DNA of 33,406 nucleotides from Akkermansiaceae bacterium (GTDB taxonomy: Bacteria; Verrucomicrobiota; Verrucomicrobiia; Verrucomicrobiales; Akkermansiaceae): assembly GCA_013001695.1 (NCBI GenBank), contig JABDMC010000237.1, positions 1 to 33,406 on the forward strand, in the 5' to 3' direction. The translations under genes were made by a program, and so were the position numbers. The notes beneath the pieces are model-generated. The model was not told where the DNA came from. It worked only from the letters and a program-made list of their open reading frames with translations, and ran no database searches. Below are positions 4,651-11,045 of this stretch, piece after piece (position 1 is the first letter of the stretch; each line of letters begins with the position of its first letter).

Positions 4651-6321
4651 ATGCCCTGCATCGGCCCCCATCTCCCCCGCGCCTCGCTTCCCGGCGTCCT
4701 GCTCGTGGCGGCGGCGGCGTCGCTCGCCCCGGCGGAGACGTCCGTCAAGGCCCACACCCTCTTCGCGGAGTCCACCGGCAGCCGCTTCAAGCCCATCGGC
4801 ATCTACAACGACGGCCAGTCAACGACGGCCCTCGAGGTGCGGCGGGCCACCACCGGCGGGACGATTTCGGGGACCTTCACCAACTCCGGGTCCGCGCTCC
4901 ATATTGCCGGGGACAATGCGCCCAGCGTCGCGGTGGTGCTCCGGGATGACGGGACCCAGGGCGACGTCGTGGCCGGCGACGGCATCTACACCCTGTGGCC
5001 GATCACCTCCGCCAAGGCCACCGACCAGTTCGAGAATCGCCTGCACTGGAACACCTACCATCTCTCGCTCGACGGGGGCGGGGGCACGATCTCCACCAAG
5101 CTCGGGATCGTGGACAGCGGGATCAGCTACGCCACCCGGGTGCTCGGCACCGACGTCGACGGCCACCTCATCACCTCCTCCGACTTCATCGTCAACATCC
5201 AGGACGACGCCCTCGTGGACGGCTCGCTCAGCGGCAACGTATCCGAGAATCTCGGTGCCATCACCGACAAGCTCTACTCGGTCTTCGACGACCGCTTCGA
5301 TTACCTCGTCTTCATCTCGGTCCTGAAGACCGACAACGGCACCAATACCTACTTCGGGTTCCGCAACGAGGTCTCCGGCCTCGGGAATTCGGGCTTCGGA
5401 CCGCCCTACGACAGTACCGGCCTCTTCGGGATCCCGCCGGCCGAGAAGAATTCCGGCGTCTTCAACGGGATCGCCTATATCAACGACGGCGGATCGAGCA
5501 TCTACGGGGCGCTCCACCACGAGCTCATGCACCGGTGGGGCGTCAGTTTCGGCTCCGAGCTCGGGTTCCCGTTCGGCTCGCACTGGAACGGGGTGCCCGC
5601 CCCCGGCGAGGCCTACGTGGCCGCCTTCGTCGGCGCCCTGGGCGGGGCCGAGGTCACCGAGAACGGCGACAACACCATCACCATCCGGGCCGTCCCCGCC
5701 ACGGTCTACCCCCCGCTGGAACTCTACCTGATGGGCCTCATCGGCCCCGGCGAGGTCCCCGACACCACCTATTACCGCTACAACCAGTCCGACCAGAGCA
5801 TCATCGAGATCTTCCACCTCAGCATCGACGACATCACCACCACCTTCGGCCCGCGGAATCCGGGGGTGGCCGATTCGCAGAAGGAATTCGCGGCCGCCTT
5901 CGTGGTGATCACCCCGCCCGGGGAGCCGCTCACCGCCGCCGAGACGGCCATGTATTCGGTGGCGGCGGAGCACTTCGGCTCCGACGCGCCCGGTGACGGC
6001 GCGGTCTCGGGGGCCTTGATCAGGACCCCCGCGTCCTTCGCCTGGGGCACCGGCTTCCGGGGCACCATGAACACCACCCTCTTCGTGCGGCCCTCCCCCG
6101 TCATCCGCACGGTCACGGTGGATGCCGGCACGGTTTCGCTCGGCATCACGGGGGCCGCCGCCACCGCCTACGACGTCTACCGGTCCCCCGACCTCGTCAC
6201 CTGGGGCACCCCCATCGGATCCGCCACCACCAGCAACCAGGGCGACGGCACCGGCACCGGAACCTACGACGACACCACCGCCGGCGCCGGGACCCTCTTC
6301 TACCGCCTCGCGGAACAATAG
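4651..6321 (+). CDS. Secreted putative zinc metallopeptidase with HExxHRW and ELYLMGL motifs
   Basis: A 556-residue exported protein. Residues 1-29 form a signal peptide with a likely cleavage after APA. The middle region contains HHELMHRWG, an HExxH zinc-binding motif at His290-Glu291-His294, followed by SHW at about 310-312 and PLELYLMGLIGPGEVP at about 355-370. Glu357, 62 residues after His294, is a plausible third ligand of gluzincin type; this is inference. From memory, large bacterial secreted proteins with HExxHRW, a later HW, and a LYLMGL..EVP segment form a recurrent but poorly named group. The last 75 residues look like a fibronectin III or Verrucomicrobia-type beta domain (YDVYRSPDLVTW, FYRL). 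No PEP-CTERM anchor is present. An AAGG 6 bases before the ATG may serve as a ribosome binding site. Substrate is unknown. Confidence 0.8.
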   Translation: MPCIGPHLPRASLPGVLLVAAAASLAPAETSVKAHTLFAESTGSRFKPIGIYNDGQSTTALEVRRATTGGTISGTFTNSGSALHIAGDNAPSVAVVLRDDGTQGDVVAGDGIYTLWPITSAKATDQFENRLHWNTYHLSLDGGGGTISTKLGIVDSGISYATRVLGTDVDGHLITSSDFIVNIQDDALVDGSLSGNVSENLGAITDKLYSVFDDRFDYLVFISVLKTDNGTNTYFGFRNEVSGLGNSGFGPPYDSTGLFGIPPAEKNSGVFNGIAYINDGGSSIYGALHHELMHRWGVSFGSELGFPFGSHWNGVPAPGEAYVAAFVGALGGAEVTENGDNTITIRAVPATVYPPLELYLMGLIGPGEVPDTTYYRYNQSDQSIIEIFHLSIDDITTTFGPRNPGVADSQKEFAAAFVVITPPGEPLTAAETAMYSVAAEHFGSDAPGDGAVSGALIRTPASFAWGTGFRGTMNTTLFVRPSPVIRTVTVDAGTVSLGITGAAATAYDVYRSPDLVTWGTPIGSATTSNQGDGTGTGTYDDTTAGAGTLFYRLAEQ

Positions 6322-10175: not shown

Positions 10176-11045
10176 ATGCATCGATTTGCCGTTTTTGCCC
10201 TCGGCTGGGCTGTCGGGCTCAGCCTGCCGCTCAGCGCCCAGCTCATCGAGCTGCACTTTGACAACGACGCCGACGGCTCCCTGAGCGCCGGGGAGCGGGC
10301 CATTTTCCAGTCTGCGGCCGACACGTGGAACGGGATCATCACGGGCTATGCGCCCGGGATCACCAAGACCACCCTCACCATCGACGCCCACGACGAGTTC
10401 AGCGACGGGGTCGGGGGGATCCTCGCCACGGCCGGCCCGAACCAGGCCGTTTCGTGGGGCGGCTACATCATCACCCACTTCAACAACCCGGGCCCGGGCG
10501 ACTACGACGGCTTCATGGAATTCGACTCGGCCGACGTCGATGTCATGTTCGCGGACGGGGTGGGCTGGGAAAACGCCCTCTTCCAGACGGTCCTGCACGA
10601 GATGGCGCACGTCCTGGGATTCGGAACCCTCTGGGAATTCAACAACGTTTACGACGCATCCGGGGCCCCCGGACAATACACCGGCGCCGCCGGACTCGCC
10701 ACCTACCAGGCCGAGTTCAACCAGCCGGCGGCCGCCTTCGTCCCGGTCGAACTCCAGGGGGGGGCCGGCACGGCCCACGGCCACTGGAACGAGGAATTCA
10801 CCCCGCCGTCCGGCCCGCACCCGCCCAACGGGATCACCGACGCCTTCGGGCGCGACCTCGGCGACGACATCCTGACGGGATGGACCGGTCCCGGCAGCAC
10901 CTCGCAGCAGTGGTTGAGCGAAACCTCCGCCTACTCGCTCGAGGACATCGGTTTCCTGATTGCCTACAGTGCCATGCCGGAGCCCTCGCTCCCGGCCCTC
11001 CTGGCCCTCGCGGCCTTCTCCCTGGCGCTGAACCGCAAGCGCTAA
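10176..11045 (+). CDS. PEP-CTERM leishmanolysin-like (M8-type) metzincin
   Basis: A 289-residue exported protein. Residues 1-22 are a signal peptide ending LSAQ. The zinc motif HEMAHVLGFGTLW places His141, Glu142 and His145, followed by the Gly typical of leishmanolysin-like peptidases. The third ligand should be His203 in GTAHGHW, which matches the GT..HW pattern of bacterial M8-like proteins. The later ILTGW segment sits where these proteins normally have a Met-turn (LMTG), so Met is replaced by Leu; activity may be altered. The C-terminus MPEPSLPALLALAAFSLAL plus NRKR is a PEP-CTERM sorting signal: PEP box, hydrophobic helix, basic tail. This implies processing by an exosortase encoded elsewhere. 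The ATG at 10176 gives the signal peptide; the longer frame upstream from 9603 is antisense noise. Monocistronic, with its own promoter and terminator. Confidence 0.88.
   Translation: MHRFAVFALGWAVGLSLPLSAQLIELHFDNDADGSLSAGERAIFQSAADTWNGIITGYAPGITKTTLTIDAHDEFSDGVGGILATAGPNQAVSWGGYIITHFNNPGPGDYDGFMEFDSADVDVMFADGVGWENALFQTVLHEMAHVLGFGTLWEFNNVYDASGAPGQYTGAAGLATYQAEFNQPAAAFVPVELQGGAGTAHGHWNEEFTPPSGPHPPNGITDAFGRDLGDDILTGWTGPGSTSQQWLSETSAYSLEDIGFLIAYSAMPEPSLPALLALAAFSLALNRKR

Follow-up and report, generated by a model that had tools for sequence, protein, structure and literature searches.

The 556-residue protein P0001, encoded in the 33,406-nucleotide stretch of an Akkermansiaceae contig analysed here (the window), belongs to a real and widespread family that is unlabelled in Pfam and NCBIfam. 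Judged by its sequence, the protein is most likely a secreted zinc endopeptidase, and the family a new one of a known kind of enzyme, within the zincins. We give a probability of roughly 0.6 to the reading in which His290, His294 and His311 would surround one zinc, with Glu291 as the general base. An earlier note on this DNA had proposed a distinct, poorly described secreted HExxH family, and the 85 distinct domain sequences now collected, with no credible match in the libraries, agree with it.

Gene and protein layout

The open reading frame and the HExxH, SHW and LELYLMG segments named in the earlier note are all present in the translation: HELMH spans residues 290–294 and is followed by R295 and W296, SHW spans 310–312, and PLELYLMGLIGPGEVP spans 355–370 (Table 1). 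GC at codon positions 1, 2 and 3 is 0.597, 0.513 and 0.937, and the third-position values of the neighbouring acs and mpl genes are 0.899 and 0.931, compared to 0.591 for an antisense ORF at the same locus. Because its GC by codon position resembles that of acs and mpl, unlike that of the antisense ORF, we take this frame to be the coding one. By eye, the N-terminus resembles a Sec signal peptide, in line with the signal peptide claimed earlier, and the only cysteine of the protein is residue 3. The FN3/Ig likeness modelled for residues 479–556 is a weak statement, this being a common fold. The neighbouring genes in the window say nothing about the function of P0001: they encode an acetyl-CoA synthetase, a Mur ligase and a coiled-coil-looking protein that has no Pfam family. 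Elsewhere in the window, at 10569–10793, a weak Peptidase_M8 match (E 0.0055, below the cut-off) lies in a 486-residue open frame that is possibly a shadow frame.

Table 1. Features of the P0001 gene and its product, with positions in the window
Feature	Positions	Strand	Basis
Whole gene, encoding a modular, secreted protein that carries an HExxH domain	4651..6321	+	ORF, 556 aa plus stop; GC3 0.937
Signal-peptide-like N-terminus, about residues 1–28	4651..4734	+	Hydrophobic stretch after arginine, by eye
Choice-of-anchor X (choice_anch_X) segment, residues 97–115	4939..4995	+	NCBIfam NF041940.1, 29.8 bits, cut-off 25
Conserved, putatively catalytic domain, about residues 198–475	5242..6075	+	Profile of the other 84 sequences; structure model core
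HELMHRW, residues 290–296: two zinc His, general-base Glu, invariant Trp (predicted roles)	5518..5538	+	85/85 distinct sequences, partly forced by scan pattern
His311-Trp312: candidate for the third zinc ligand, and an invariant Trp	5581..5586	+	85/85; outside scan pattern
LELYLMG, residues 356–362: acidic Glu357, invariant Tyr359 and Gly362	5716..5736	+	Column counts, 85 sequences
GPRNPGVADSQKEF, residues 400–413, second conserved block	5848..5889	+	G 82, R 84, P 84, Q 81, F 82 of 85
C-terminal FN3/Ig-like beta-sandwich (modelled), residues 479–556	6085..6318	+	VIA-align Z 7.3, rmsd 2.1–2.6 Å, 71–76 residues

Extent of the family

A first genome scan with P0001 alone as query gave no match. 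Scanning genome contigs with a six-sequence alignment matched 140 stretches, of which 112 were confirmed and the best 80 of these 112 kept, and the domain is present by profile in all 80 kept loci; as the scan demanded one HExxHxW pattern, the family count is a lower bound. The collection came to 87 domain sequences, reduced to the 85 distinct ones by dropping L018 and L024, which are copies of L004 and L014. Against a profile made from the 84 remaining sequences, P0001 reaches 133.0 bits (E 8e-37, calculated for one million sequences), compared to 6.5 bits for the only one of 500 shuffles that was listed, so that the likeness of P0001 to its relatives is not due to chance; the reversed sequence was not listed at all.

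The tree, from which the partial L083 and the frame-shifted L091 are absent, comprises 83 rows and carries 12 phylum labels, with 33 rows from Acidobacteriota, 13 from Bacteroidota, 10 from Gemmatimonadota and 8 from Pseudomonadota, and a further 8 unlabelled. The branch of P0001 is long (2.2) and its position next to the Acidobacteriota-rich side has 90/64 support, though we are unsure of this placement and make no claim of transfer. Within the taxonomic family of the window genome the domain family is rare and patchy: it is carried by 5 of 260 genomes and is absent from all 14 other genomes of the genus. Across the phylum, a protein query found 8 of 387 genomes, in several cases by the C-terminal module only, and a profile found 6 of 387, as did a larger profile. 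As for mobile elements, the plasmid search gave a single relative, from Granulicella tundricola (WP_013572926.1, plasmid pACIX901; 31% identity over residues 290–425), and a plasmid search with L072, a relative of P0001, gave none; there was no phage match and none in viral contigs. The Granulicella protein, annotated as hypothetical, belongs to the same family as P0001 but has a different N-terminal part, lacks the FN3-like tail and lies behind a DPP-IV-type gene. In Persicirhabdus sediminis a shorter copy adjoins an intact gene (L018:3271-4170, the end of which is also L004:2-685); it retains the domain's first third, as far as HE, together with the C-terminal strand, and is without the stretch bearing H294, HW and YLMG.

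The libraries offer no name for the domain. With an E limit of 10, P0001 matches neither a Pfam family nor, by phmmer, a PDB chain, and the conserved domain has no credible match in Pfam, NCBIfam or PDB sequences. Among 48 members, with E allowed to reach 0.1, four weak names came from Pfam (best 0.013) and 11 scattered ones from NCBIfam (best 0.0033), none of them a peptidase family and none common to more than three members. Other matches that we took as chance are a COG3793 tellurite resistance PDB chain at profile positions 196–273 (best E 0.049, with E 1.9 for the other alignment), the likeness of the Granulicella protein to Ntox46 (E 0.17) and that of L072 to a PADLOC entry (E 0.014). 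Searches of a PMC library with motif strings, the accession and wider topics brought up no paper that, by its title or the start of its abstract, seemed to describe the family.

Conservation of the putative active site

Eight residues are invariant in all 85 sequences: H290, E291, H294, W296, H311, W312, Y359 and G362. The invariance of HExxHxW in the 80 scan loci is by construction; H311, W312, Y359 and G362 lie outside the scan pattern, and the same eight residues are invariant in the seven members that were found without any HExxH scan pattern. A member found later by profile only (L148) keeps HExxHxW, HW and Y-L-A-G, and has Asp at position 357. Nearly invariant are R402 and P404 (84 of 85), D214, D217 and G243 (83), G332, G400 and F413 (82), and Q410 (81).

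The earlier note had put forward Glu357, separated from H294 by 62 residues as it stated, as the third zinc ligand of a gluzincin-like enzyme, and had listed it for invariance with His290, Glu291, His294 and His311. The latter four hold in 85/85 (80 of the loci having been collected with a pattern that included HExxHxW), whereas Glu357 holds in only 45; the column otherwise reads Asp in 37, Gly in two and Ser in one, and is thus acidic in 82 of 85. With His311 found in every sequence, Glu357 as third ligand is not favoured. The two Gly357 copies (L044 and L056, both Gemmatimonadota) keep all other motif residues, as does the Ser357 copy (L016), and L044 and L056 are under purifying selection, with dN 0.071 and dS 1.377 over the 297 codons of the domain and dN 0.137 and dS 1.30 over the whole ORF of 751 codons (Nei-Gojobori; dS is near saturation). 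Because position 357 varies, including to Gly in maintained genes, while H311 is constant, the sequences favour His311 as the better candidate. The Gly357 evidence does not settle the matter, as selection can maintain a protein that is not catalytic, and the column is acidic in most members. The gap between H294 and H311 is variable, with 11 to 29 intervening residues (16 in P0001) between two fixed ends, as would be expected of a ligand on a loop.

Structure models

The AlphaFold2 model of L072 (48 sequences; mean pLDDT 91.7, pTM 0.86) has a helix at 63–76, strands at 83–88, 101–105 and 132–136, and then a helix at 147–156 that bears H149, E150 and H153. A helix, three strands and then the HExxH helix is the order of the zincin N-terminal half, which the predicted elements fit. 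In the same model H180-W181 (equivalent to H311-W312) lies outside helices and strands of at least three residues, and E229 (equivalent to E357) and Y231 lie in a helix at 227–232. The P0001 model (71 sequences) has a mean pLDDT of 63.2, with values of 70–95 through most of 201–450 and of 71–76 around HExxH and HW. Foldseek with the L072 model found no PDB chain at E 0.001 or better (best 0.74), VIA-align on 865 of the Foldseek-listed chains reached a best Z of 4.0, and a BFVD structure search gave nothing at E 0.001; the full P0001 model also gave nothing at E 0.001 and aligned only via its C-terminal residues 479–556. By the tool's own note, such an absence of structural matches is not proof of a new fold.

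Comparison with known metallopeptidases

As in zincins of clan MA, the His, Glu and His of HExxH are invariant, which is independent of the search pattern only for the seven non-scan members, and the sequence columns offer candidates for a third ligand C-terminal to HExxH, either H311 (85/85) or Glu/Asp357 (82/85). For comparison with individual families by hhalign, sequences of M1, Reprolysin_4 and Peptidase_M6 were taken from 39 related genomes. As parents, Reprolysin_4 (probability 49.1%, over 15 motif columns) and M1 (23.4%, 23 columns) were rejected; M6 gave 6.5% over 22 columns, on only five M6-like sequences, as one of six loci (L139) is without HExxH and was dropped. Known cousins compared in the same way gave 80.5% for M1 with Reprolysin_4 (12 columns), 75.2% for Reprolysin_4 with M6 (21) and 17.7% for M1 with M6 (31), so the method is not very sensitive here. 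M43 sequences were found in none of the 39 related genomes, and a search for M8 sequences in 288 genomes gave two, both under the cut-off and neither usable.

A metzincin-like enzyme, in which HExxHxxGxxH would carry a leishmanolysin-like insertion ahead of the third His and YLMG would be the Met-turn, appears unlikely to us. P0001 does read HExxHxxG, with H311 16 residues past H294, and by analogy leishmanolysin (M8) offers a precedent for a third His moved onto a loop, being a secreted or surface enzyme in which HExxHxx is also followed by a variable stretch before a later His; a 62-residue insertion lies there between the Gly and the third His and leaves the geometry of the site unchanged (PMC5572447, PMC11957388). 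However, the strict Gly is replaced in most members (Ala 44, Gly 25, Ser 16), neither His nor Asp is among the seven commonest letters of the residue-300 column (V 36, A 17, I 16, G 8, L 4, M 2 and F 1, covering 84 of 85 rows), and P0001 itself has Phe at this position, the missing third His having been remarked on before. The Met-turn candidate, judged from its sequence column alone, is Met361 in 68 members but Ala in 15 and Leu in two. For M8 (PF01457), P0001 has no match at E 10 and the 48 members none at E 0.1, and M8 has 19 Cys (PMC11957388) compared to the one in P0001. Some M12B-type Reprolysin_4 (PF13583) proteins of related genomes come near to the HExxHxWG of P0001 in reading HExxHNWGxxH, though their third His at +6 has no equivalent in the P0001 family, and the hhalign score against them covers few columns. 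Three Reprolysin_4-type loci of related genomes (L132, L133 and L136) carry an HExxHNW much like the HExxHxW of the family, with His at +6. Doubtful, in turn, is a gluzincin-like peptidase in which Glu357 (Asp in relatives), on the LELYLMG helix, would be the third ligand and H311 would belong to the second shell. In gluzincins the third-ligand Glu lies on a helix downstream of the HExxH helix, and both models, of L072 and P0001, place 357 in a short predicted helix so located; the acidic residue could still be a ligand in most members, and a mixture of Asp and Glu as third ligand is on record for mini-zincins of the Acel_2062 type (PMC3890501). Against this stand the lack of a strict Glu, the better conservation of H311, and the Gly and Ser copies that keep the other motif residues, the Gly pair under purifying selection. 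M1 aminopeptidases (PF01433) share HExxHxW with the family, but their Glu comes 19 residues after the second His (HExxH, 18 residues, Glu), where P0001 has Asn (residue 313), and the family, with its varying loop length after H294, has no Glu at a fixed distance.

We also considered a surface-binding or adhesive domain with a metal site and no cleavage, or a hydrolase of another bond. Adhesive modules do occur in relatives, and activity in the family is so far a prediction; however, the general-base Glu291 and both His are invariant in 85/85 (partly through selection by the scan), and we regard this reading as quite improbable. Returning to His311 as the third ligand, we suggest only tentatively that the family could form a separate zincin branch and a new subclan, spread over at least 12 phylum labels, with the ligand supplied by His-Trp on a loop of free length and a C-terminal half unlike those of metzincins and gluzincins.

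Proposed function and gene context

We infer zinc binding, the assignment of ligands, proteolysis and the substrate. Judging from its N-terminus the protein would be exported, and its one metallopeptidase domain, of about residues 198–475, would bind one zinc through the two histidines of the HExxH helix, His290 and His294, with His311 on the variable-length loop as the most likely third ligand. Glu291 would activate the zinc-bound water, and Tyr359 and the acidic residue 357, on the short helix reading YLMG, may line the site or brace it. The predicted enzyme would cleave proteins outside the cell, and accessory modules would place it on a surface or on its substrate (choice_anch_X and FN3-like here; LRR, dockerin, Kelch, FG-GAP, Big_2 and Por tails in relatives). 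The modular context is observed directly: among ten full-length relatives searched with Pfam, six have modules (LRR, CARDB, FlgD_ig, dockerin, FG-GAP, HYR, Por_Secre_tail, Kelch and Big_2) and four have none.

Five of the 80 scan loci, all from Acidobacteriota (L060, L061, L069, L071 and L094), have the gene directly behind a DPP-IV-type gene or ORF on the same strand, and the Granulicella plasmid (L003:1-3576) shows this arrangement as well. The neighbour is confirmed by profile as DPPIV_N plus Peptidase_S9 for L060 and L061 only, and by BLAST linkage for the other three; in L021 a DPP-IV-type gene lies just downstream instead. An S9 neighbour is found in a minority of loci only and not in the window of P0001, and the acidobacterial pair is possibly a peptide-breakdown operon.

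If the proposed function is true, the secreted metallopeptidases known from soil-dwelling and marine bacteria (Acidobacteriota, Gemmatimonadota, Bacteroidota, Verrucomicrobiota and others) would gain a further family. As the family is without a label in the curated libraries searched, its genes would be missed by surveys of extracellular protein breakdown. It would also provide a clean test case for the distance over which an HExxH enzyme can shift its third zinc ligand.
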